IMG/VR virus record: IMGVR_UViG_3300030339_001052
Span: 1 to 64,000 of that record
Length of the DNA stretch: 64,000 nt
DNA from: a virus
Direction: 5' to 3' (one strand)
In this document: positions 1-8,937 of the stretch, one piece after another
How positions within the stretch are numbered: the stretch's first letter is position 1
Layout of the letters: each line of letters opens with the position of its first letter
Notes under the pieces: generated by a model
What the model was told of the DNA's origin: nothing
Databases searched by the model: none
The model's input: only the letters and a program-made list of their open reading frames with translations
Made by a program: the position numbers and the translations under genes

Positions 1-39
1 TACAACGATATTTGGAAAGGAATTTTAAGTGAGACTTTG

Positions 40-87
40 AAAGTCGAACAAATTACAATCCAAATGTAGTTTGTTCGACTTTTTTAT
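40..87 (+). terminator. Intrinsic terminator upstream of tRNA array
   Basis: A 13-bp perfect inverted repeat (AAAGTCGAACAAA at 40-52, TTTGTTCGACTTT at 70-82) is followed by a T-rich tract. It probably ends a gene lying mostly before the window; frames open from base 1 stop at about 28 or 32, so only a handful of C-terminal codons would be inside. Confidence 0.75.
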
Positions 88-99
88 TTTAAAATACTT

Positions 100-174
100 G
101 CCGAAGTAGTTCAGTGATAGAACAAATGATTTGTAATCATTAGGTCGTGAGTTTGACCCTCACCTTTGGCTCCA
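100..174 (+). tRNA. tRNA-Thr (TGT)
   Basis: Acceptor GCCGAAG pairs with CTTTGGC, D stem GTTC/GAAC, anticodon arm AATGA-TTTGTAA-TCATT with anticodon TGT, T arm GTGAG/CTCAC. Discriminator T followed by an encoded CCA. Confidence 0.93.
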
Positions 175-207
175 AAAAAAGATCTTTGACATATTGTACA
201 AAAAAAT

Positions 208-279
208 GCTCAATTCGACTATCGGTTAGGTCGTCAGGTTTTCATCCTGGAAAGAGGGGTCCAACTCCCCTATTGAGTA
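208..279 (+). tRNA. tRNA-Glu (TTC)
   Basis: Acceptor GCTCAAT/ATTGAGT, anticodon arm TCAGG-TTTTCAT-CCTGG giving TTC, T arm AGGGG-TCCAACT-CCCCT. The 3' CCA is not encoded. Confidence 0.88.
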
Positions 280-285
280 CTAAAT

Positions 286-361
286 GGTCCATTAGAGGAG
301 TCTGGCCGTCCCCGTTTCCCTGTCACGGAAAAAATCACGGATTCGAATTCCGTATGGACCG
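286..361 (+). tRNA. tRNA-Asp (GTC)
   Basis: Acceptor GGTCCAT/ATGGACC, anticodon arm TTTCC-CTGTCAC-GGAAA with GTC, T arm with TTCGAAT loop and CACGG/CCGTA stem. Discriminator G, as usual for Asp. The D arm is less regular than in neighbours. Confidence 0.88.
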
Positions 362-367
362 CATATT

Positions 368-410
368 GGGAAGTATATCAATTGGTTAGATTGCTTCATT
401 TTATATCGAT
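368..410 (+). pseudogene. tRNA fossil, 5' half only
   Basis: GGGAAGT followed by a tRNA-like D-arm segment (TCAATTGGTTAGA) starts 7 nt after tRNA-Asp, but no anticodon stem, T stem or matching 3' acceptor strand follows. A lone TTCGAA occurs near 434. It looks like the 5' part of a tRNA gene whose 3' half was lost, directly before an endonuclease gene. The identity cannot be read. Confidence 0.4.
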
Positions 411-464
411 TATTATTTTTATAAAGTTTTTAAGTTCGAAACGCACTTTTTTGACAATTCACAC

Positions 465-478
465 TATTTATATTAAAA
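465..478 (+). promoter_or_regulatory. Candidate phage late promoter (TATTTATA)
   Basis: TATTTATATTAAAA lies 12 nt before the ATG of the endonuclease gene at 485. The same octamer precedes most virion operons in this window. It is the reverse complement of the T4 late promoter; the late-promoter role is inferred from recurrence. Confidence 0.55.
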
Positions 479-484
479 AATAGT

Positions 485-1375
485 ATGAACGAAGATGAAG
501 AGTTAATTGATTTAATAAAAAAATCGAAATCAAAAAACGAAATATCCCTTAAATTTTATGGATATTCAAATAAAAAAACTTATAAAAAGATAGATGAGTT
601 TATATCTAAAAATGGAATTAATGATGAACATTTAAATAAAAAAATTAAATATTGTCCTAATTGTGGTAATATAGTAACAAAGAAAGGAAATACATTTTGT
701 AATAGGAGTTGTTCTGCTTCTTATACTAATAAGGGTAAAATTAAAACAACTGAAGAAAAAATAAATATTTCAAATGGATTATTACTATATCATTTTAATA
801 ATTATGATAATAAAAAATATACCATTGTAGATTCAGATAATAAAAATAATAATAGCAAAATAGTAGTTAAAAGATTAACAAAATTTTGCGAATATTGTAA
901 TACTGAGTTTACACCTAAAAAAGGAAAACAAAAATTTTGCTCACCGTCTTGCGGAACAAAAAATAAACATACTTCAGATGAAACTAAAGAAAAATTAAGA
1001 AATATAATGAATAAAAAGGTTAAAAATGGTACCCATCAAGGGTGGAAATCAAGATCTAAATTAGATAGATCTTATCCTGAGAAATATTTTGAGGGTTATT
1101 TTAATAATGAAAATATTATAGGATGGGAACCAGAGCTACCTGTTGGTAAATATTTTATTGATTTTGGATTTATTGAAAGAAAGATAGCTTTAGAAATTGA
1201 TGGTAAACAACATGAATACAGTGAAAGAAAAATTAAAGATAAAGAAAAAGACACATTCTTAACGGAAAATGGCTGGGCGGTTTTTAGAATTAAATGGTAT
1301 AACCCAATTAATAAGAAAAATAAACAACTACTTTATGAACAAATTGAAATCTTTAAAAAATTAATGAATAAATAA
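485..1375 (+). CDS. Free-standing homing endonuclease, Vsr/EDxHD-like
   Basis: 296 aa, no close functional name beyond the nuclease class. Residues 1-90 form a DNA-binding module shared with the genes at 2422 and 4240: a helical start, then a zinc finger (CPNC at 57-60, FCNRSCSASY at 71-80). A second CxxC...CxxxC finger follows at 135-156. The C-terminal 100 residues match the Vsr-like PD-(D/E)XK fold: E199, IDF with D226, EIDGKQH (237-243), a K/D-rich helix (KDKEKD), then GWAVFRIKW. This arrangement is that of EDxHD homing endonucleases, which cut DNA so that the gene copies itself into cut sites. The target is probably in the tRNA array. It has its own TATTTATA promoter and is followed after 1 nt by tRNA-Pro. 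Nuclease type fairly sure, target unknown. Confidence 0.8.
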   Translation: MNEDEELIDLIKKSKSKNEISLKFYGYSNKKTYKKIDEFISKNGINDEHLNKKIKYCPNCGNIVTKKGNTFCNRSCSASYTNKGKIKTTEEKINISNGLLLYHFNNYDNKKYTIVDSDNKNNNSKIVVKRLTKFCEYCNTEFTPKKGKQKFCSPSCGTKNKHTSDETKEKLRNIMNKKVKNGTHQGWKSRSKLDRSYPEKYFEGYFNNENIIGWEPELPVGKYFIDFGFIERKIALEIDGKQHEYSERKIKDKEKDTFLTENGWAVFRIKWYNPINKKNKQLLYEQIEIFKKLMNK

Positions 1376-1376
1376 A

Positions 1377-1450
1377 CGAGATGCGATCCATTGGTGCGGT
1401 TACCTCACTTGGAATGAGGGTTATTGGGTGTTCAATTCGCCTCATCTCGA
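1377..1450 (+). tRNA. tRNA-Pro (TGG)
   Basis: Acceptor CGAGATG/CATCTCG, anticodon arm CCTCA-CTTGGAA-TGAGG with TGG, T arm GGGTG-TTCAATT-CGCCT. Begins one base after the stop codon of the endonuclease gene. CCA not encoded in full. Confidence 0.92.
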
Positions 1451-1465
1451 CAAATTAAAATATAT

Positions 1466-1547
1466 TGCGGGGGAATGAAACAGACATATAAATCATGATA
1501 GTCTCATAAGCTATTTATAATAGGCGCGACTCCTATACCCGCAACCA
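1466..1547 (+). tRNA. tRNA with CAT anticodon (Met, fMet or Ile2)
   Basis: Acceptor TGCGGGG/ACCCGCA (six pairs and one G-A mismatch), D stem ATGA/TCAT around an unusually long 14-nt loop without the usual GG, anticodon arm ATAGT-CTCATAA-GCTAT, T arm ATAGG-CGCGACT-CCTAT, encoded A-CCA. One of three CAT tRNAs, so it may be an Ile (AUA) isoacceptor needing lysidine. Confidence 0.8.
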
Positions 1548-1552
1548 ATAAT

Positions 1553-1624
1553 GTTTCCTTAGTTCAATGGATAGAACAAAAAACTTCTAATTTTTAGATA
1601 TTGGTTCGATTCCAATAGGAAATA
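1553..1624 (+). tRNA. tRNA-Arg (TCT)
   Basis: Acceptor GTTTCCT/AGGAAAT, D stem GTTC/GAAC, anticodon arm AAAAA-CTTCTAA-TTTTT with TCT, T loop TTCGATT. Decodes AGA/AGG, the Arg codons favoured in this AT-rich genome. Confidence 0.92.
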
Positions 1625-1631
1625 CTTAAAT

Positions 1632-1702
1632 CTCTCATAAGTCATGCGGTATGGCGATGCTCTGCAAAAGCATGTAGGTTTGTTCAACTCAAACATGGGA
1701 GT
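1632..1702 (+). tRNA. tRNA-Cys (GCA)
   Basis: Acceptor CTCTCAT/ATGGGAG, anticodon arm ATGCT-CTGCAAA-AGCAT with GCA, T arm with TTCAACT loop. Discriminator T (U73), as expected for Cys. Confidence 0.9.
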
Positions 1703-1712
1703 CAAATAATAT

Positions 1713-1797
1713 TCCCCTATGGTAGAATTGGCTAAATACGCCAGACTTTGATTCTGGTATCCTAACGGATGTGTACGTTCGAGTCGTGCTGGGGGAA
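1713..1797 (+). tRNA. tRNA with TTG (Gln) anticodon on a class II body
   Basis: Acceptor TCCCCTA/TGGGGGA, anticodon arm CCAGA-CTTTGAT-TCTGG, T arm GTACG-TTCGAGT-CGTGC, discriminator A. The variable region is long (about 14 nt) and can form an ATCC/GGAT stem, as in Leu, Ser or Tyr tRNAs. The D region resembles the two tRNA-Leu genes at 3997 and 4086. Anticodon says Gln, body says Leu; see findings. Confidence 0.85.
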
Positions 1798-1804
1798 CAA
1801 AAAT

Positions 1805-1891
1805 GGAAAGTTGGGTGAGAGGATTATACCACCTGTTTGCTAAACAGACGATCAGTTAAATGGTCCACAGATTCGAATTCTGTACTTTCCG
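1805..1891 (+). tRNA. tRNA-Ser (GCT)
   Basis: Acceptor GGAAAGT/ACTTTCC, anticodon loop TTGCTAA with GCT on a CTGT/ACAG stem, long variable arm typical of Ser, T arm ACAGA-TTCGAAT-TCTGT, discriminator G. Confidence 0.93.
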
Positions 1892-1904
1892 CAAAAAATA
1901 ATAT

Positions 1905-1976
1905 GGGGCTTTCATATATCGACTATTATGACTGGTTTGCATCCAGTACAGAGGGTTTCGACTACCCTAAGTTCCA
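1905..1976 (+). tRNA. tRNA-Ala (TGC)
   Basis: Anticodon arm ACTGG-TTTGCAT-CCAGT with TGC, T arm AGGGT-TTCGACT-ACCCT, acceptor GGGGCTT/AAGTTCC with two G-T pairs. The D arm is weak, so the tRNA is degenerate but foldable. Confidence 0.82.
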
Positions 1977-2001
1977 CAAACAAAATAGTTTTATTATATA
2001 A

Positions 2002-2075
2002 TGGGATATAGCTCAACTGGTTAGATCACAAAACTGATAATTTTGAGGCTGGGGATTCAAGTTCCTCTATCCCAA
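2002..2075 (+). tRNA. tRNA-Ile (GAT)
   Basis: Acceptor TGGGATA/TATCCCA perfect, anticodon arm CAAAA-CTGATAA-TTTTG with GAT, T arm GGGGA-TTCAAGT-TCCTC, discriminator A. Confidence 0.92.
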
Positions 2076-2089
2076 CAAAAATTAAACAT

Positions 2090-2161
2090 TGGAGATTAGC
2101 TCAGTGGTAGAGCATCTATTTTACATGTAGAGGGTCCACGGTCCAATTCCGTGATTTCCAA
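2090..2161 (+). tRNA. tRNA-Val (TAC)
   Basis: Acceptor TGGAGAT/ATTTCCA, D stem GCTC/GAGC, anticodon arm TCTAT-TTTACAT-GTAGA with TAC, T arm CACGG-TCCAATT-CCGTG. Confidence 0.92.
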
Positions 2162-2166
2162 CAAAT

Positions 2167-2239
2167 GGTGACGTAGCTCAGTTGATAGAGCGTTCCCTTC
2201 ATGCGGGAAATGTCGGTGGTTTGAGTCCATCCGTCGCTA
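2167..2239 (+). tRNA. tRNA-Met (CAT)
   Basis: Acceptor GGTGACG/CGTCGCT, D stem GCTC/GAGC, anticodon arm TTCCC-TTCATGC-GGGAA with CAT, T arm GGTGG-TTTGAGT-CCATC. The anticodon stem has CCC on its 5' side, not the GGG of bacterial initiators, so an elongator or Ile2 role is likelier than fMet. Confidence 0.88.
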
Positions 2240-2248
2240 CAATAATAA

Positions 2249-2321
2249 TGGGGTGTGACAGACGTGGTGTATGTGATGGTCTGAAAAACCATTTAAAGAG
2301 ATTCGATTTCTCTCACTCCAA
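2249..2321 (+). tRNA. tRNA-Phe (GAA)
   Basis: Acceptor TGGGGTG/CACTCCA, anticodon arm ATGGT-CTGAAAA-ACCAT with GAA, T arm AGAGA-TTCGATT-TCTCT, discriminator A. Confidence 0.9.
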
Positions 2322-2336
2322 CTTTTAAAACTATTT

Positions 2337-2374
2337 TCGAACTTAGTAAATTATTTAAAAATAAATTAGTTCGA
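2337..2374 (+). terminator. Hairpin after the first tRNA block, possible terminator
   Basis: TCGAACT (2337-2343) pairs with AGTTCGA (2368-2374) and the AT-rich interior can extend the stem. Only a short T run follows. It separates the first tRNA block from the endonuclease gene at 2422. Confidence 0.4.
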
Positions 2375-2399
2375 TTTCATACTTTTCCACTTTTTTTCA

Positions 2400-2407
2400 T
2401 ATTTATA
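2400..2407 (+). promoter_or_regulatory. Candidate phage late promoter (TATTTATA)
   Basis: TATTTATA 14 nt before the ATG at 2422, in the same position relative to the start as before the other free-standing endonucleases. Confidence 0.5.
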
Positions 2408-2421
2408 TGTAAAGTATTAAT

Positions 2422-3488
2422 ATGGAAAATAAAAAAGAAACGTATGATATATTAAATTCATTTAAAACAAAAACAGAAGCTTATAAATATTTTGGAATAT
2501 CAACAAACTCTAATGGTATACTCGAACTAAATAAGTTATCCAATTCAGTTGGTTTTGATCTAAATATATATAAACTGAAAAGAAACCCGAAAAGATATTG
2601 TTTAAACTGTAATAAAGAATTAACTAAAGGTCAAAAAAAGTTTTGTTCTACAAGCTGTTCTACAACATACAATAATACTGGTAGAATTTTAGATGAGAAA
2701 ACTAAAAATAATATACGACTTGGAAGAATTAAATATAATAATGAACACAATGTAAAAAAATAAAATTATGTAAAATATGTGGGCAAGAAAAATGCACTAA
2801 CTTAGAAGTTTGTAATCATATGTATAGTTGGTTCGAGAATTTAAGTTGTTTTGGATTTGACATAAAAAAGCTTGGGACTATTAATATTTATCTTGAATAT
2901 TATAGAATCAAAGAATTATTACTAAAAGAATATTTTGATAATGAAATGTCTCCTAAGGATATTTCAATTAAATATAATTATAATAAAACATATGAAAATT
3001 TATTACATATATTAAAGACATTCGGGATTAAGACAAGAAATCCTTCAGAAAGTGCATTAAATTCATGTTTACAAAATACAAATACATCGGTCTATTCAAA
3101 TGATACAAATTATAGTTTTAAACATGGGTGGCATGAAACATGGGATAAAAAATTAATATATTATAGAAGTTCTTATGAACTTGAATATGCATTAGAATTA
3201 GATGAAAAGAAAATTATTTATGAAGTTGAATTTTTTAGAATAAAATATTGGGATAGTGTAAAATTAAAATATAGGGCTGCAATTCCAGATTTTTATATTA
3301 AAAGTGATAATTTAATTGTTGAAATAAAATCTAAAGTAACATTCAATAAACAGAATATAATTGATAAATTTAATGAGTATATTAAAATTGGTTATAATGT
3401 GTGCTTATTATACGAAAAACAATATTATTCATATGATAATATGCTAAATATGAGTGAAAATAAATACTTATTTAAATCTTACATGTAA
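2422..3488 (+). pseudogene. Homing endonuclease split by a frameshift (PD-(D/E)XK type)
   Basis: Two reading frames form one gene. The first part (2422-2763, 113 aa) has the helical start and zinc finger (YCLNC, FCSTSCSTTYNN) shared with 485 and 4240. At the A-run 2754-2760 the frame changes: reading on in the other frame gives KLCKICGQEKCTNLEVCNH, a CxxC...CxxxxxxC motif, joined without stop to the second part (ATG at 2820, 222 aa to 3488). The second part ends in a PD-(D/E)XK nuclease: RSSYELEYAL, then IPDFYI and IVEIKSK. The missing middle coding makes a start at 2820 unlikely to be native. Options are a decaying gene, slippage on the A-run, or a sequencing error in the homopolymer. Confidence 0.72.
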
Positions 3489-3492
3489 AAAT

Positions 3493-3568
3493 GGTCTTGT
3501 AGCTCAGTGAACAGAGCGTCTGAATACGAATCAGAAGGTCGGGAGTCTAATTCTCTCCAGGATCACCA
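3493..3568 (+). tRNA. tRNA-Arg (ACG)
   Basis: Acceptor GGTCTTG/CAGGATC, D stem GCTC/GAGC, anticodon arm TCTGA-ATACGAA-TCAGA with ACG, encoded ACCA. A34 would need deamination to inosine by the host enzyme TadA to read all CGN codons it normally serves. Confidence 0.9.
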
Positions 3569-3614
3569 AAAATGGTTTTTTAAAGTTGTACCATCTCCAA
3601 AAACAACAATGTAA

Positions 3615-3691
3615 GCTCCCTTAGCTCAGTTGGTTAGAGCTGCTGACTCATAATCAGAGGATCGGATGTTCAAATCATTCAGGGAGCACCA
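3615..3691 (+). tRNA. tRNA-Met (CAT), elongator-like
   Basis: Acceptor GCTCCCT/AGGGAGC perfect, D arm GCTCAGTTGGTTAGAGC, anticodon arm with loop CTCATAA on CTGA/TCAG, encoded ACCA. The D arm and loop resemble bacterial elongator tRNA-Met. Confidence 0.92.
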
Positions 3692-3693
3692 AT

Positions 3694-3770
3694 GATCTAA
3701 TGGCTCAAATGGATAGAGCTTCACACTTTTAATGTGAAGGTTCTGGGATCATACCCCAGTTAGGTCACCA
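3694..3770 (+). tRNA. tRNA-Lys (TTT)
   Basis: Acceptor GATCTAA/TTAGGTC, anticodon arm TCACA-CTTTTAA-TGTGA with TTT, T arm CTGGG-ATCATAC-CCCAG, encoded ACCA. Begins 2 nt after the preceding tRNA. Confidence 0.92.
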
Positions 3771-3818
3771 AAAATCGGCAGTAATTCAATTTTACTACCA
3801 ATAATTTGAATAATAAAT

Positions 3819-3891
3819 GCGATAGTAGCTCAGTTGATAGAGCGTTAGATTTCCAATCTGAGGGTCGCGAGTTTGAGCCTCGCCTATCGCT
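3819..3891 (+). tRNA. tRNA-Gly (TCC)
   Basis: Acceptor GCGATAG/CTATCGC perfect, D stem GCTC/GAGC, anticodon arm TTAGA-TTTCCAA-TCTGA with TCC, T arm GCGAG-TTTGAGC-CTCGC. Confidence 0.92.
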
Positions 3892-3913
3892 CTAATAATC
3901 AATATAATACAAT

Positions 3914-3986
3914 GGGGATGTAGCTGGAGGGTCTTATGCACTTGACTGTTAATCAAGAGAAGAGGTTTCGATTACCTCCATCCCCG
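3914..3986 (+). tRNA. tRNA-Asn (GTT)
   Basis: Acceptor GGGGATG/CATCCCC perfect, anticodon arm CTTGA-CTGTTAA-TCAAG with GTT, T arm GAGGT-TTCGATT-ACCTC, discriminator G. Confidence 0.92.
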
Positions 3987-3996
3987 CAAATAAAAT

Positions 3997-4077
3997 GCTC
4001 AAATGGTGGAATGGTAGACACGTATGCCTTAGAAGTATATACCGAAAGGCGTGAGGGTTCGAGTCCCTCTTTGAGTA
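3997..4077 (+). tRNA. tRNA-Leu (TAG)
   Basis: Acceptor GCTCAAA/TTTGAGT, anticodon arm TATGC-CTTAGAA-GTATA with TAG, long variable arm, T arm GAGGG-TTCGAGT-CCCTC, discriminator A. Class II body. Confidence 0.9.
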
Positions 4078-4085
4078 CAAACAAT

Positions 4086-4166
4086 GTTTCAATGGTGGAA
4101 TGGTAGACACTACGGTCTTAAACACCGTTGCTTTGCGGCTTACAGATTCGAGTTCTGTTTGGGGTA
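4086..4166 (+). tRNA. tRNA-Leu (TAA)
   Basis: Anticodon arm ACGGT-CTTAAAC-ACCGT with TAA, long variable arm, T arm ACAGA-TTCGAGT-TCTGT, acceptor GTTTCAA/TTGGGGT with several G-T pairs. The D arm is nearly identical to that of the tRNA-Leu just upstream, so this may be a duplicated pair. Confidence 0.88.
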
Positions 4167-4218
4167 CAAAAAAATTAAAATAATAAAGTTCAAAACCTGT
4201 TTTTTCCGTTTTTCCATG

Positions 4219-4226
4219 TATTTATA
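4219..4226 (+). promoter_or_regulatory. Candidate phage late promoter (TATTTATA)
   Basis: GTATTTATATTAAAA 13 nt before the ATG at 4240. It is the fullest form of the recurrent motif. Confidence 0.55.
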
Positions 4227-4239
4227 TTAAAATATAATA

Positions 4240-5019
4240 ATGGAAAACAATGAACTACTGAAAATTTTTGACGAATCAAAAAATGTAACTGATTTACTTA
4301 AAAAATTAAATTTATCTGATAATACTATTAATAGAAATAAAATTAAAAATATTTCGATTGAGATAAATTTTGATTTAGACTTATATAGAATAAGAAAATT
4401 AAAATATTGTTTAAATTGTGGAAAAATATTAATAGGAGATCGACATAAATTTTGTTCTAATAGTTGTTCTGCAACATATAATAATACTGGACGAAAAGTA
4501 AGTAATGCCACGAGAGATAAAATAAGAAAAACATTAGCAATTGTTAGGCCTAAAAAACCTAAAGTTAAAAAGGAAAAACTAACTAAGGAAGTTAATTTAA
4601 CTAATTCTTGTCCAATATGCGGTATTAAAATAACAAATGATAAAATATGTTGTTCAAATAAATGTTCTAATATAAAGAAACATAAAGAGAATTATATTTA
4701 TTTTTTAGAACACCCAAGTGAATATAACAACGGAGGATATACACCAAAACAATATAAAGATTTCTTCTTATTAGAGCAAAATAATAAATGTGCTATTTGT
4801 GGAATGAACGACGAATGGAATGAAAAAAAATTAATATTTGTTTTAGATCATATAGATGGGGATGCTTCAAATAATATAAGAAAAAATTATAGAATGATAT
4901 GTCCGAATTGCGACTCCCAAACAAGTACATTTAAAAACAAAAATAAAAACTCAACCAGACGAAATTATTGGAAAGAAAAAATAATAAGAGATTTACAAAA
5001 TAAAATGGAGGTGGTCTGA
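4240..5019 (+). CDS. HNH homing endonuclease
   Basis: 259 aa. The N-terminal 95 residues are the same zinc-finger module as in the genes at 485 and 2422 (YCLNC 57-60 region, FCSNSCSATYNNTGR 71-85). A second Cys cluster (CPIC 124-127, CCSNKC 137-142) follows. The C-terminal HNH domain is clear: CAIC at 184-187, LDHIDGD at 202-208 with the catalytic H204, NN at 211-212, and CPNC at 221-224. HNH enzymes of this type make single- or double-strand cuts for homing. The last 13 nt of the gene overlap the 5' acceptor strand of tRNA-Ser at 5007, so the gene sits flush against its neighbour on both sides. It is driven by its own TATTTATA motif. Confidence 0.88.
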   Translation: MENNELLKIFDESKNVTDLLKKLNLSDNTINRNKIKNISIEINFDLDLYRIRKLKYCLNCGKILIGDRHKFCSNSCSATYNNTGRKVSNATRDKIRKTLAIVRPKKPKVKKEKLTKEVNLTNSCPICGIKITNDKICCSNKCSNIKKHKENYIYFLEHPSEYNNGGYTPKQYKDFFLLEQNNKCAICGMNDEWNEKKLIFVLDHIDGDASNNIRKNYRMICPNCDSQTSTFKNKNKNSTRRNYWKEKIIRDLQNKMEVV

Positions 5020-5093
5020 ATGGACGAAGGGCTAATCTTGAAAATTAGTAGTACGTTAATACCGTATTGGGGGTTCAATTCCTCTCGCCTCCG
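5007..5093 (+). tRNA. tRNA-Ser (TGA)
   Basis: Acceptor GGAGGTG/CGCCTCC, anticodon arm CTAAT-CTTGAAA-ATTAG with TGA, long variable arm, T arm with TTCAATT loop, discriminator G. Its first 13 nt are also the last codons of the HNH gene. Confidence 0.92.
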
Positions 5094-5098
5094 CAAAT

Positions 5099-5155
5099 AG
5101 ACAAGTGTATAACGTTTGGAAAACGTAGCAGATTTGAAAAATCATGGCTTGTCTT
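5099..5155 (+). ncRNA. Compact tRNA-like RNA lacking a D arm
   Basis: A perfect 7-bp closing stem (AGACAAG 5099-5105, CTTGTCT 5148-5154) encloses an anticodon-like hairpin (ACGT-TTGGAAA-ACGT, GGA at the anticodon place, which would be Ser) and a second hairpin (GATT/AATC at 5131-5143). There is no D arm, only 6 nt, and the second hairpin is 4 nt away from the closing stem rather than stacked on it. A T run follows, so a terminator function is also possible. Confidence 0.45.
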
Positions 5156-5237
5156 TTTAATATTAATCAATTAAATAAATAGCAATTAAATGAAAAAACT
5201 ATTCGATGCTCATTAGGTAAATTAAAACCTAATTAAA

Positions 5238-5429
5238 ATGAGTAAAAACAAAGAAATTTTAGAAACAACTGATAAACCGTCGGTTTATCGAAAAGCTTTT
5301 ATAAAGCTTTATAGTGCTTGTCCAATGTGTTCTCCAAATCGAGGATGTAATAAGCAAAGAAAATATAATCATGATTGTGAAAATTGGAAATCAAATAGAA
5401 AATCCCAATGGAAAGGATCTGAATTATGA
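5238..5429 (+). CDS. Small Cys-rich protein, unknown function
   Basis: 63 aa, basic, with a CPMC...GC...DC pattern (ACPMCSPNRGCNKQ, then HDCENW) that could bind one zinc. No recognised family. Its last four bases (ATGA) are the start of the next gene, which implies translational coupling. ATG is preceded by an A-rich leader without Shine-Dalgarno sequence, as is usual in this genome. Confidence 0.6.
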   Translation: MSKNKEILETTDKPSVYRKAFIKLYSACPMCSPNRGCNKQRKYNHDCENWKSNRKSQWKGSEL

Positions 5430-5644
5430 GCACTAACAATTTTAACAGAAAACGTGGTTATACAATTACAGATAACCACGCTTATCGTGTTTTGGTAGTA
5501 TTAGATGATGACCCTTATTGGGACGAAGGTTTGAATTACTATAAATCAAAAGGTAAAAGAGGTAATAAGAAACAAATCTTTAATTATCAACGTAGAATGT
5601 ATAGAACGTGGAAACACAATAGGAATACTCAATATAAAAGTTGA
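5426..5644 (+). CDS. Small basic protein, unknown function
   Basis: 72 aa, rich in Arg, Lys, Tyr and Asn, with a central acidic patch (LDDDPYWDEG). No recognised domain. It overlaps the preceding Cys-rich gene by 4 nt and probably forms a two-gene unit with it inside the tRNA array. Confidence 0.58.
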   Translation: MSTNNFNRKRGYTITDNHAYRVLVVLDDDPYWDEGLNYYKSKGKRGNKKQIFNYQRRMYRTWKHNRNTQYKS

Positions 5645-5650
5645 GTTTAA

Positions 5651-5690
5651 TACAAGTGAGTGGCCGAAGACAACAGACTCCAAATTTTTA
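5651..5690 (+). pseudogene. tRNA fossil, possibly tRNA-Trp (CCA) 5' half
   Basis: GTGAGTGGCCGAAGACAACA followed by GACTCCAAA resembles the 5' half of a tRNA ending in an anticodon loop CTCCAAA (CCA, Trp). No complementary 3' anticodon strand or T arm follows; the loop sequence instead forms part of a terminator stem. Trp is the only isotype without an intact gene in the array. Identity is tentative. Confidence 0.35.
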
Positions 5691-5719
5691 AAATTAATTA
5701 TTAAAATTTGGAGTTTTTT
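5677..5719 (+). terminator. Intrinsic terminator
   Basis: ACTCCAAATTTT (5677-5688) pairs with AAAATTTGGAGT (5703-5714) and is followed by TTTTT. It ends the transcript of the small genes at 5238-5644. Confidence 0.8.
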
Positions 5720-5732
5720 CTTTTTAATTATA

Positions 5733-5740
5733 TATTTATA
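5733..5740 (+). promoter_or_regulatory. Candidate phage late promoter (TATTTATA)
   Basis: TATTTATAATAAAA 14 nt before the ATG at 5755, directly behind a terminator, so the endonuclease gene needs its own promoter here. Confidence 0.55.
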
Positions 5741-5754
5741 ATAAAATATATAAT

Positions 5755-6411
5755 ATGAAAATTTGTTCTACCTGCGGAATTTCTAAAACAAATGAGTCTT
5801 TTTCTGTTAATAAATCTAAAAATGACGGCCTCGCTTCTATTTGTAAAAATTGTCACTCGACATATAGAAAACAAGATTACTTAAAAAATAAAGAAAAAGT
5901 TATAAAGCAGGTAAATAAATATAAGGTTAAAAATCCAGATAAATATAATAAAAAATCTGGACAAACCATTAAAAGTTCTTGTAAATTATGTGGCGAAGAA
6001 ATGTACATTACAAAAAAAGACGTTTCGGATAAAAAACAAAGATATTGTTCTGTTGATTGTAAAAATAATGATTACACTAAAGATTATTATCGTTATTTAA
6101 AAGATGTTGAAAAAAGAGCGATAAAAACAAATAAAGAATTTAATTTAACAGAAGAATTCATTAAAGATTTATTAGAAAATAAACAACAAAATAAATGTAA
6201 AATTACCAACGTAAATATATTAATAAAAAATAAAAACAATAAAACTTCTATTTATAATACAGCATCTCTTGATAGAATAAACAACAATAAAGGTTATTTG
6301 ATGGACAATGTTCAATGGGTTTGCTTAGGTATTAATTATATGAAATCAAAATTTAGTGATGGTGATTTATTTGAAATGTTGAAATTAATCAGAGAAAATT
6401 ATAAAGGATAA
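5755..6411 (+). CDS. HNH-type endonuclease with two zinc-binding regions
   Basis: 218 aa. It opens with KICSTCGISKTNESF...ICKNCHS, the CxxC...CxxC motif common at the start of phage HNH proteins. A second Cys set (CKLCGEE...RYCSVDC) follows at about 81-100. The C-terminal part contains ASLDRINNNKGYLMDNVQWVC, typical of a phage endonuclease family in which D and N residues of the SLDRI..GY..DNVQWV signature form the active centre. It differs from the 485/2422/4240 group in its N terminus. It lies between a tRNA fossil and tRNA-Tyr. Family fairly sure, cleavage site unknown. Confidence 0.75.
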   Translation: MKICSTCGISKTNESFSVNKSKNDGLASICKNCHSTYRKQDYLKNKEKVIKQVNKYKVKNPDKYNKKSGQTIKSSCKLCGEEMYITKKDVSDKKQRYCSVDCKNNDYTKDYYRYLKDVEKRAIKTNKEFNLTEEFIKDLLENKQQNKCKITNVNILIKNKNNKTSIYNTASLDRINNNKGYLMDNVQWVCLGINYMKSKFSDGDLFEMLKLIRENYKG

Positions 6412-6440
6412 TTTGTTATTTTTTTATATCATACTATTAT

Positions 6441-6523
6441 GCCTACATAGCGAAGTGGTCAAACGCGGCTGACTGTAAATCAGCTCTCTTACGAGTTCGG
6501 AGGTTCAAATCCTTCTGTGGGCA
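6441..6523 (+). tRNA. tRNA-Tyr (GTA)
   Basis: Acceptor GCCTACA/TGTGGGC, anticodon arm GCTGA-CTGTAAA-TCAGC with GTA, long variable arm normal for bacterial Tyr, T arm GGAGG-TTCAAAT-CCTTC, discriminator A. Confidence 0.93.
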
Positions 6524-6525
6524 CT

Positions 6526-6598
6526 GTGTTGTTAGTACAATTGGAGTAGTACGCTAGTTTGTGATTCTGGAGAATAGGGTTCGAGTCCCTGCAACACC
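6526..6598 (+). tRNA. tRNA-His (GTG)
   Basis: Acceptor GTGTTGT/GCAACAC, anticodon loop TTGTGAT with GTG on an imperfect CTAG/CTGG stem, T arm AGGG-TTCGAGT-CCCT, C at the discriminator position as usual for His. No clear extra G at -1. Confidence 0.85.
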
Positions 6599-6669
6599 CA
6601 TGTAATAAAATTAAATTAACTTTTTGTACAATATCTCAAAATAAAATTTCAAAAAACAAATGTTTTTTT

Positions 6670-6704
6670 AATCCTGTTAGTATTTATATTGACAGGATTT
6701 TTTT
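6670..6704 (+). terminator. Hairpin terminator whose loop carries TATTTATA
   Basis: AATCCTGT (6670-6677) pairs with ACAGGATT (6692-6699), followed by a T run. The loop contains GTATTTATATT (TATTTATA at 6681-6688), the recurrent promoter octamer. It may end the tRNA transcript, start transcription of the small genes beginning at 6746, or both. Confidence 0.6.
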
Positions 6705-6745
6705 ATAAAATACTCTAAATAACCAATTAAAAAAAATGTGAATAT

Positions 6746-6895
6746 ATGTTTAAAATACAATGTGCTGGTTGTTTGAGAGATTTTGATATAATTGAAACTA
6801 AACGTATTGGTAAATATAGATATTGCCAGGATTGTCAAAAATATATTGTAGATAAATTGGTTAATAAAAGTAATGGTAATTCTGATAACGTTTAA
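6746..6895 (+). CDS. 49-aa zinc-ribbon peptide
   Basis: ATG at 6746 opens a 49-residue frame with QCAGCLRDF (CxxC) and RYCQDCQKY (CxxC), spaced like a single zinc ribbon, then a polar tail. No signal peptide. Function unknown. It is the first of four short genes on the same strand; the even CxxC spacing argues for a real protein. Confidence 0.6.
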   Translation: MFKIQCAGCLRDFDIIETKRIGKYRYCQDCQKYIVDKLVNKSNGNSDNV

Positions 6896-6995
6896 TATAA
6901 TGGTACAAATATGGTGTTTTTGAATGATATATCATACATTATGACCGATTTTTTATTTTAGTGAATGAAATAACCAACATTAAATAAATTAACTT

Positions 6996-7088
6996 ATGTT
7001 TTTAGATATTCTTTTAGGTGTTTTAGTTATTATTGGTATAATAATATATTTAGTTATCGATTATTCGAAATTTTGCGATGAAAAATAA
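6996..7088 (+). CDS. 30-aa single-pass membrane peptide
   Basis: MFLDILLGVLVIIGIIIYLV is one hydrophobic helix, followed by a short polar tail (IDYSKFCDEK). Size and make-up are those of a phage membrane micropeptide. Unknown function; very short, so coding status is uncertain. Confidence 0.4.
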   Translation: MFLDILLGVLVIIGIIIYLVIDYSKFCDEK

Positions 7089-7116
7089 CCTAAAAACTCT
7101 ATTTATTTAAAATTAT

Positions 7117-7227
7117 ATGAATTGTAACGATGTAATATGTAGTTGTGGTCAGGGTAAAAATAGGACTCCTGATAATTTAATATGGAAAGATGGACTCCCA
7201 TACTGTCCTAATTGTAATAATTTTTAA
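7117..7227 (+). CDS. 36-aa Cys-rich peptide
   Basis: Contains CNDVICSCGQGK and YCPNCNN: a CxC or CxxxxC pair and a C-terminal CPNC, a zinc-ribbon pattern similar to the peptide at 6746. The stop at 7225 is 10 nt before the next gene start at 7238. Confidence 0.5.
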   Translation: MNCNDVICSCGQGKNRTPDNLIWKDGLPYCPNCNNF

Positions 7228-7237
7228 AAACGTTAAT

Positions 7238-7651
7238 ATGACAAAAATAAAAGTTAAAGAAAGTGTTTTACGGAATATGATAAAAGAAGCATTATTGAAA
7301 GAATATAATAATAATTATCATGATATAAGGCCAGGTAGTTTAGGAAATCATTCTGGTGGAGAAAGTAGTATAAATTCCGTACCACAGACTAATGATTTAA
7401 ACATAGTCGATATGGGTTATGCAAGTCCAGAAAAAAGGCAGCAATGGAAATCTATGGGACGTGTGCCGAACGTAGAATTTTATCCAGGAAAAGATCCCAT
7501 TAAAATGAGTGCTCATATGCGCCATTTAAAAAGTTTATACGGGGGTAGAATTGAATTTTTTGCTTATAATAATGGAACGTATGTTTTTTTTAAGTTTGAT
7601 GGAAAACCAGAATATTTAAAACCCGCATCTTTAAATTCAGAATATAAATAA
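7238..7651 (+). CDS. Unknown 137-aa protein with KES-type N-terminal helix
   Basis: I place the start at the ATG at 7238 rather than an upstream ATG at 7190, which would overlap the preceding Cys-rich gene. The protein then begins MTKIKVKESVLRNMIKEALL, an amphipathic helix of a kind I associate with virion-related proteins of Bacteroidota myoviruses (recollection, not a search). Gly/Ser-rich residues follow, then a compact C-terminal region with an FFAYNNGTYVFFKF beta hairpin. No catalytic motif is visible. It could be a packaged or head-associated protein. Confidence 0.6.
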   Translation: MTKIKVKESVLRNMIKEALLKEYNNNYHDIRPGSLGNHSGGESSINSVPQTNDLNIVDMGYASPEKRQQWKSMGRVPNVEFYPGKDPIKMSAHMRHLKSLYGGRIEFFAYNNGTYVFFKFDGKPEYLKPASLNSEYK

Positions 7652-7652
7652 T

Positions 7653-7760
7653 ATGGTTAAATGTTGTTTATGTACATCAACGAATGTTGTAACTACAGTT
7701 AATTATAACCACTATTGTAAAACATGTTATGATAATAATTTTAAATTAATAACATATTAA
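7653..7760 (+). CDS. 35-aa zinc-ribbon peptide
   Basis: MVKCCLCTSTNVV...HYCKTCYDN has a CCxxC and a CxxC pair 18 residues apart, again a mini zinc ribbon. It starts one base after the previous stop and ends against the terminator at 7761. Confidence 0.5.
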   Translation: MVKCCLCTSTNVVTTVNYNHYCKTCYDNNFKLITY

Positions 7761-7802
7761 AAAAATGGCTACTGAAATCTAAAATTTTCGGTAGCCATTT
7801 TT
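7761..7802. terminator. Bidirectional terminator between convergent genes
   Basis: AAAAATGGCTACTGAAA pairs with TTTCGGTAGCCATTTTT, an A tract on one side and a T tract on the other, so it can end transcripts from both strands. It overlaps the stop codon of the minus-strand gene. Confidence 0.85.
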
Positions 7803-8937
7803 ATTTATTTTGAATATCATGTGTTAATATTCCATATTCAGTAATATATGAATTATCTGGACTATCAGTTAAAATACCAACTACATCTCCGAATCCGACT
7901 GATTCTATATTTTTAATATATCTGCCAACTTTATATTTTTCAGGAGTATAATAAATATCAGCTTTTCTTTTTATTCTAAAAGGGTTTATTCCAGCTGGCA
8001 TTTTAATGTTTAAACGGTAAGCTCTTCTACATAAATGTTTAACTCCATCTTTGGTATATGAACCTATTTTTGATTTCATTCTAACTATTCCACCTAAGCT
8101 ATGCACAATTTCAGCAACATCGTTAGCTAATTGTTCTGATACTGTTGAATATTCTGTACCGCCAAACGACCCATTTTTTCGATGACTAATAACACAATAA
8201 CCATCCGTGTCCATTAACCCTTGAAGCATTGAGATTCTATTTTCAATACTTGAATATTTATAAATATCAGGGATAAATTTATCCCATGACCTGTGTTCGT
8301 TTAACCCTATTCCAGTAAGTTTTATTTCCGTGTCCGAAATAGCGCCAAATCTAATATTAGGTCTCTTAACATTTGTTTTTAGTTCATTAATAGTTATATC
8401 TTCAAATAGTTCATCGTAATCATCTTTATGGACAGCAAATTTTATTTGATTATGTGAAAAATGGCCATCTCCAAGTCCTAAACCCAATAAATATGGTTCT
8501 ATAGGTAAATTATTAAAATTATTAAAACCTATTGGTTTTACAATCGGTATCTGCCATCTTGGGGATTTATCTTTATGTTTAAAATAAGTACCAAATTCAT
8601 ACTCCCTAATTTTAGAATTACCATTTTGTTGCTTCTGTTTTAATATTAAATCTTTATCCAACATTTGTTTTGTGGTTAATAAAAAAATTTTATTTTTTCT
8701 ATTTGTATGATTTTCTCCACTATTACTTGAATACAATGTACACAAATGTTCTCCGTCAACAATTAATGAATAACCATCATTAAAAGTTATTTTAAAAAGT
8801 TCTACGTTCGTTTCTGAATGTACTTCCATTACGTTACAATAACTACCATTATTACCAACTATTTTATCACCAATATTAACATCACCAATTCTTTTTCTTC
8901 CATTTAATGTAAATAATTTATTTTCAATAAACTCCAT
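7801..8937 (-). CDS. Stand-alone intein-derived LAGLIDADG endonuclease
   Basis: 378 aa with the whole layout of an intein but no exteins. Residues 6-28 match the Hint N-terminal block (LNGRKRIGDVNIGDKIVG), 52-66 the block with DGEH (H64). LAGLIDADG helices are LLGLGLGDG (150-158) and MLQGLMDTDG (237-246). The end, SPDNSYITEYGILTHD (359-374), matches the intein C-terminal block. The N-terminal nucleophile is absent (begins MEFIENK), the final Asn is Asp, and only IQNK follows, so protein splicing should not occur. I infer an intein that became a free-standing homing endonuclease. Its second LAGLIDADG region is close to that of the helicase intein at 43986 (SIENRI..L.GLMDTDG). It is downstream of the SNF2 helicase gene, separated by a structured segment. 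Confidence 0.85.
   Translation of the reverse strand: MEFIENKLFTLNGRKRIGDVNIGDKIVGNNGSYCNVMEVHSETNVELFKITFNDGYSLIVDGEHLCTLYSSNSGENHTNRKNKIFLLTTKQMLDKDLILKQKQQNGNSKIREYEFGTYFKHKDKSPRWQIPIVKPIGFNNFNNLPIEPYLLGLGLGDGHFSHNQIKFAVHKDDYDELFEDITINELKTNVKRPNIRFGAISDTEIKLTGIGLNEHRSWDKFIPDIYKYSSIENRISMLQGLMDTDGYCVISHRKNGSFGGTEYSTVSEQLANDVAEIVHSLGGIVRMKSKIGSYTKDGVKHLCRRAYRLNIKMPAGINPFRIKRKADIYYTPEKYKVGRYIKNIESVGFGDVVGILTDSPDNSYITEYGILTHDIQNK

Follow-up and report, generated by a model that had tools for sequence, protein, structure and literature searches.

Why do three nucleases of unrelated folds carry the same N-terminal zinc module within one array of transfer RNA (tRNA) genes, and which part of each protein ties it to that array? 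The question is raised by genes A, B and C of the IMG/VR virus record IMGVR_UViG_3300030339_001052 (147,145 bp), of which positions 1–64000, here called the window, were analysed; a tail-sheath gene in the record links the virus to T4-like myoviruses. A, B and C are probably free-standing homing nucleases in which the rear domain carries the specificity for a tRNA gene and the zinc heads are exchanged between unrelated nucleases. The main support comes from loci of hundreds of related viruses retrieved in IMG/VR scans (labelled in the form L009), in which the isotype of the neighbouring tRNA varies with the C-terminal nuclease lineage rather than with the head.

The neighbouring tRNA gene follows the nuclease lineage

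Genes of the EDxHD lineage have Pro(TGG) upstream in 29/44 cases and downstream in 10/33, the unnamed SRDH/HPANC nuclease family, here given the name ISR, lies with Ala(TGC), and the HNH lineage with Thr(TGT). Compared with random junctions of the same arrays, which served as a within-array null, EDxHD genes touch Pro in 34/47 cases (8.8 expected, z 10.4), ISR genes touch Ala in 26/52 (5.6 expected, z 9.8) and HNH genes touch Thr in 28/72 (10.1 expected, z 7.5). The EDxHD–Pro association persists after clustering at 60% identity (14.1/22 vs 3.4). With degenerate or broken tRNAs included, the counts become 42/54 for EDxHD with Pro(TGG), 32/62 for ISR with Ala(TGC) and 36/95 for HNH with Thr(TGT), the same isotypes occurring beside other lineages at about 0–6%, except that a PD-(D/E)XK lineage termed SSW is also found at Pro (19/55). 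Matches between lineage and isotype sum to 110, against 31 with shuffled labels (maximum 45). Degenerate tRNAs taken alone repeat the pattern: Pro makes up 8/15 of those beside EDxHD genes vs 4/98 elsewhere, and Ala 11/23 of those beside ISR genes vs 2/90 elsewhere.

Gene A fits its lineage in adjoining tRNA-Pro, as do its nearest named relatives, LR756501 (a 735-kb huge phage), Lak-A1 and Lak-C1, all of which touch Pro(TGG). HNH relatives of gene C touch Thr in Ochrobactrum phage OC and Cronobacter phage GAP32; gene C itself lies at Ser(TGA), as does L006, its nearest HNH relative (69% identical in the nuclease domain). Gene B lies at Phe, L009 and L515 likewise have Phe upstream, and an interrupted Phe precedes L010. 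Little data underlie these associations of B with Phe(GAA) and of C with Ser(TGA).

Phage tRNA arrays might instead be tolerant, gap-rich landing sites for any phage nuclease gene, the isotype preferences being artefacts of sampling or phylogeny. The GIY-YIG nuclease SegB gathers near tRNAs across phages with no isotype preference reported (PMC13096335), and an EDxHD-like lineage denoted RRS (75 proteins) shows no strong preference either; against this stand the z scores of all three within-array comparisons and the enrichment among degenerate tRNAs beside EDxHD and ISR genes, and the landing-site explanation is considered improbable.

The head is probably not the targeting part

The sequence-only reading had suggested that the shared head perhaps recognises tRNA-gene DNA. 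On that model the head would bring any attached nuclease to the array, and most carriers of the module do sit in tRNA arrays. Nuclease domains were also scanned for on their own, with adjacency defined as a tRNA gene within 200 bp, and homologues lacking the module proved no less array-bound (88/110, against 109/132 for module carriers; p 0.62 by Fisher's test); with a stricter motif the counts were 168/208 without and 70/82 with the module (p 0.40). The isotype likewise follows the nuclease domain whether the module is present or absent: EDxHD genes lie at Pro in 9/14 cases with a zinc score of at least 25, 13/14 with intermediate scores and 11/17 with none, and the ISR–Ala association is the same with and without the module. 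In favour of the head, HNH genes lie at Thr in 14/24 cases with the module vs 8/39 without, and close heads on different nucleases have the downstream tRNA in common in 2/8 pairs (p 0.008, closest heads only), slightly above chance, though the association of head with isotype is not significant beyond these closest pairs. Because module-free homologues are equally often in arrays, the head was rejected as the tRNA-targeting part, and recognition of tRNA genes by the head is regarded as an improbable explanation for the array location.

Several results weigh against assigning the specificity to the rear domain. The HNH–Thr association is weaker after clustering (3.4/13 vs 1.2), the ISR proteins reduce to 2 clusters at 60% identity, and besides the indifferent RRS lineage, distant DUF559 relatives in Rhizobium, Aeromonas and Leptolyngbya phages lie in arrays, not at Pro. 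Given the 2/8 close-head pairs, at most a weak tendency to share a tRNA, the head may have a minor part in targeting. No empty allele was found for A, B, C or any EDxHD gene. The idea that the adjoining tRNA genes carry an altered target sequence was rejected, as no alignment column differs in nuclease-adjacent tRNA genes. Inheritance by linkage and unequal sampling are possible contributors to the isotype association.

A zinc head shared across nuclease lineages

The proposal that the three proteins share one N-terminal plan was confirmed by alignment of the heads (BLASTP expect value, E, of 8e-16 for B–C, 9e-9 for A–C and 2e-7 for A–B). The zinc knuckle, a treble clef, is plainly common to A, B and C. 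In the helical part that precedes it, B and C score 63, compared with a best of 47 among 500 shuffles; A–B and A–C alone are not significant in this part, and the helical part of A is linked to B and C via its EDxHD relatives; in L007, for instance, this region resembles that of B (z 18) and that of C (z 15). Two independent AlphaFold2 models, one for C and one for L009, the ortholog of B, predict the same secondary structure in the head, with helices at residues 3–12, 16–22, 29–41 and 46/47–52, the zinc hairpin, and helices at 74–86 and 89–104. Weak profile matches to LuxR-type helix-turn-helix proteins suggest that such a fold precedes the treble clef.

Within the 147-kb record there are exactly three copies of the module, and two scans of viral contigs found it at 54 and 60 loci. 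Its carriers include HNH, EDxHD (two lineages), ISR and at least three PD-(D/E)XK lineages; among IMG/VR relatives the number of nuclease lineages attached to the zinc knuckle is at least seven. Two scans of 84,980 prokaryote genomes (257 Gb) found no module locus and two module loci, respectively, and this near-absence indicates that the module is essentially viral at the sensitivity of the scans. Relatedness of heads between nuclease types is far above chance: the best cross-type head matches are 45–57% identical, the pre-zinc part of the HNH protein L166 matches that of B (z 27), and that of the HNH protein L005 matches the PD-(D/E)XK protein L010 (z 25; 57% identity over the head). The head label requires 12 changes on the EDxHD nuclease tree, which together with the cross-type identities upholds the earlier suggestion that the head is swapped between unrelated nucleases. 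Nuclease genes at L014, L015 and L040 contain in-frame stops compatible with TAG read as glutamine, which suggests phages with a recoded stop codon.

The three rear domains differ, as had been read from the sequence, and the assignments bear up under profiles, motifs and a model. Gene A encodes a DUF559/EDxHD nuclease (Pfam E 3e-10, above the gathering threshold), the stretch LEIDGKQH giving the ExD...H motif. Gene C encodes an HNH nuclease (PHROG HNH E 7e-20) with the motif LDHIDGDASNN...CPNC and zinc cysteines; no Pfam HNH family scored above cut-off, and Foldseek gave weak matches to PacI, EndoVII and DotN. Gene B is assigned to PD-(D/E)XK by its motif YRSSYE...PDFY...EIKSK, an E-(x)n-PD-(x)n-ExK core, and the model of L009 has an alpha/beta fold that matches TnsA-like and archaeal HJR-type nucleases in BFVD, matches in the PDB being weak. 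Profile searches found no GIY-YIG domain in the three proteins, and the best match to the curated profiles of NUMOD homing DNA-binding modules was NUMOD1 at 17.6 bits (cut-off 22.8).

Insertion into and between tRNA genes

Relatives of these genes are polymorphic insertions in tRNA arrays, in agreement with the earlier view of them as homing nucleases. A Cys–Leu junction is empty in L114 and L115 and holds an ISR gene in L319; a Pro–Lys junction is empty in L114 and holds a PD-(D/E)XK gene in L115 and L423; and further presence/absence pairs exist among related phages (L428/L107, L128/L106 and L382/L342). Insertion points lie mostly in spacers between tRNA genes. In 91/307 cases the 3' end of the open reading frame (ORF) overlaps the next tRNA, and in a further 48 the gap is at most 10 nt, irrespective of strand. 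L173 differs from L106 by an HNH insertion that also added two tRNA genes, Thr and Lys, to the array.

At three loci, L284, L179 and L457 (Table 1), an ORF together with an intact tRNA lies inside a tRNA that is split at the anticodon loop, the intact tRNA starting within the last codons of the ORF. Between the halves, acceptor pairing amounts to 7/7 in L179 and L457, where cross-locus controls reach at most 6, and, as checked by eye, to 7/7 in L284. At four further loci the cognate tRNA beside the nuclease carries an insert of about 80 nt in its anticodon loop (Pro in L071, Phe in L010, Thr in L176 and Ala in L261). These split and inserted tRNAs, few in number and drawn from unsystematic sampling, suggest anticodon-loop DNA as the site of cutting or insertion; ARAGORN run with anticodon introns was too noisy for counting.

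The tRNA genes with such inserts lie at L010:3726–3884, L176:2422–2574 and 3556–3710, L261:3443–3603 and L071:2634–2788, with further examples at L236:1942–2089 and 3779–3939 and at about 920–1090 of L061. The inserts measure about 70–90 nt and are structured: they comprise a small hairpin, an A-rich linker, a long stem and sometimes a T-arm-like hairpin. They have no Rfam match and may represent short phage tRNA introns of a family not yet described.

The anticodon loop is a classic site of group I introns, and the presence of an ORF inside it at some loci could mean that the genes are remnants of such introns whose ribozyme has been lost. The flanks within the broken tRNAs are, however, too short for a ribozyme core. 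An intron-encoded origin was rejected, as Rfam identified no group I or II intron in window positions 1–8000 or at 28 related loci. Within that part of the window the three genes are intergenic, placed between tRNA genes and outside any recognised splicing element. A derivation from group I introns appears extremely improbable.

A nuclease and its neighbouring tRNA could also be inherited as one cassette, the association then reflecting linkage and not recognition. Both the travel of tRNA genes with inserts, as in L173, and the intact tRNA that accompanies the ORF at the nested loci are in keeping with this. In the EDxHD tree, however, 39/52 core rows touch Pro on one side or the other, upstream (30) or downstream (9), the two intermixed so that at least 6 changes are forced, and the EDxHD–Pro pairs have many different second neighbours. 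Nor does linkage alone predict that the tRNA enclosing a nested element should match it in isotype, exactly or as the nearest one. Linkage as the whole explanation is rated unlikely, if less so than the landing-site and head-recognition explanations.

Proposed mechanism and relation to known systems

Under the favoured reading, in which the rear domain confers specificity, A, B and C would be intron-less homing endonuclease genes resident in the tRNA array, each protein having an exchangeable head (four helices, helix-turn-helix-like, and a treble clef) in front of a second zinc cluster, and at its C terminus a nuclease from one of several unrelated types. Lineages would be paired with tRNA genes, A with Pro(TGG), B with Phe(GAA) and C with Ser(TGA), and the nuclease would cut the array in or close to its tRNA gene, with anticodon-loop DNA as the probable site. 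The cut phage would then copy the cassette, consisting of leader, ORF and often the adjoining tRNA, from a co-infecting phage. The head may supply extra DNA contacts for affinity, spacing or autoregulation, and heads would pass between nucleases by recombination.

A bolder version, put forward tentatively, is that phage tRNA arrays house a guild of homing cassettes, every lineage keyed to a single tRNA isoacceptor gene, which cut the anticodon loop and insert together with a replacement tRNA of the same isotype while their heads are shuffled. The 5' end of the replacement would overlap the ORF, and insertion would both break the resident tRNA gene and compensate for it.

Free-standing homing endonucleases within tRNA arrays have a precedent in SegB of phages T4 and T6, a GIY-YIG enzyme (Brok-Volchanskaya 2008, cited in PMC2988022; PMC13096335). 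There, segB 3' DNA recombines with the 5' end of a tRNA, comparable to the ORF–tRNA overlaps described above. SegB differs in its fold, and no zinc head is reported that it has in common with other nuclease folds. Exchange of DNA-binding regions, zinc modules included, is known from the T5orf172 homing endonucleases of phages, which swap domains such as the CapR zinc DNA-binding domain, described as CxxC...CxC (PMC10448857); those swaps stay within one nuclease class, whereas in the tRNA arrays studied here a single head spans HNH, EDxHD, PD-(D/E)XK and ISR nucleases. The EDxHD family is listed among homing endonucleases (PMC6083498), and gene A has a nuclease domain like theirs. The type example of EDxHD homing endonucleases is I-Bth0305I. 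Gene A is free-standing, zinc-headed and beside tRNA-Pro, in contrast to the intron-encoded known type. HNH genes in phage tRNA clusters have been proposed to spread those clusters (PMC6409571); that location is shared with the genes studied here, and the analyses of module, isotype and insertion site are those of the present work. Searches of the open-licence literature yielded neither a rule linking nuclease lineage to isotype nor a description of nested tRNA cassettes.

A vague impression of nucleases in phage tRNA arrays thereby becomes a rule open to bench experiments, namely which domain picks which tRNA gene. If true, it would help to account for how phage tRNA arrays are built, reshuffled and broken, and would provide a natural set of matched nuclease–target pairs with interchangeable zinc heads. 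It would also point to a guild of selfish genes, each dependent on one kind of tRNA gene, and suggest mobile cassettes that compensate for a destroyed tRNA by supplying its replacement.

Gene layout, leader elements and the gene B frameshift

Table 1. Features of the window and of three related loci (positions in the window unless a locus is named)
Feature	Position	Strand	Remark
tRNA array	100–6599	+	22 tRNA genes; host to the nuclease genes
Leader box of A	434–472	+	GTTCGA-N25-TATTTATA
Gene A	485–1375	+	296 aa; stop codon 1 nt before tRNA-Pro(TGG)
Gene A head	about 485–770	+	four helices and treble-clef zinc
Gene A second treble clef	about 870–1005	+	
Gene A nuclease	about 1100–1330	+	C-terminal EDxHD/DUF559
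tRNA-Pro(TGG)	1377–1451	+	adjoins gene A
tRNA-Phe(GAA)	2249–2322	+	directly upstream of gene B
Leader box of B	2369–2407	+	GTTCGA-N25-TATTTATA
Gene B	2422–3488	+	355 aa across −1 frameshift
Gene B zinc head	2422–2706	+	
A7 run	2754–2760	+	site of −1 frameshift; GTA AAA AAA TAA; linker between head and nuclease
Gene B second zinc cluster	about 2769–2822	+	
Gene B nuclease	about 3110–3440	+	C-terminal PD-(D/E)XK
Leader box of C	4188–4226	+	GTTCAA-N25-TATTTATA
Gene C	4240–5019	+	259 aa; last 14 nt inside tRNA-Ser(TGA)
Gene C zinc head	4240–4495	+	
Gene C second treble clef	about 4603–4710	+	
Gene C nuclease	about 4738–4970	+	HNH
tRNA-Ser(TGA)	5006–5094	+	overlaps 3' end of gene C
Gene D	5755–6411		endonuclease-VII-like; unrelated to A/B/C; also between tRNA genes
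Split Ala, L284	L284:94–812		halves nt 1–33 and 43–74 around ISR ORF and intact Ala(TGC)
Split Leu(TAA), L179	L179:50–930		halves around HNH ORF and intact Leu(TAA)
Split tRNA, L457	L457:2674–3412		halves nearest to Ile/Val around SSW ORF and intact Ile(TAT)

The leaders of A, B and C have an identical 25-nt spacing between GTTCRA, which is T-loop-like, and TATTTATA, and the only exact matches to this leader box in the 64 kb are these three. GTTCRA occurs in 64/166 leaders running from a tRNA to an ORF, compared with 5.6 in shuffles and 33/255 control leaders, usually 43–60 nt upstream of the start codon. Promoter, operator and recombination site are candidate roles. Its use as an operator bound by the head was rejected, since the overall difference (27/60 vs 69/301) is not significant within any nuclease type. 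TATTTATA lies 20–27 nt before several starts, for example at 465, 2400, 4219, 5733, 11125, 25102 and 51378, and TATTTATAT is enriched in the window (31 vs 11 expected); TATTTATA is a probable promoter element of this phage.

The ORFs that the sequence-only reading had placed at 2422 and 2820 are present at 2422–2763 and 2820–3488, but they are not two separate genes: together they make up the single gene B, split by the frameshift. The reading frame is intact in its relatives L009, L010 and L515, and the same frameshift is present in the L004 contig, which is 99.98% identical over 8.3 kb. The slippery run A AAA AAA is perfect and immediately 5' of the stop codon. The frameshift may reflect recent decay or a programmed slippage by which both a head-only and a full protein would be made.

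The interval separating tRNA-Asp from gene A contains a degenerate tRNA-like stretch (363–453) that corresponds to the acceptor and D-arm portion, and is perhaps a tRNA broken by an earlier insertion. Beyond the array, a 378-aa ORF on the minus strand (7801–8937), as read from its sequence, resembles a Hint/LAGLIDADG intein.

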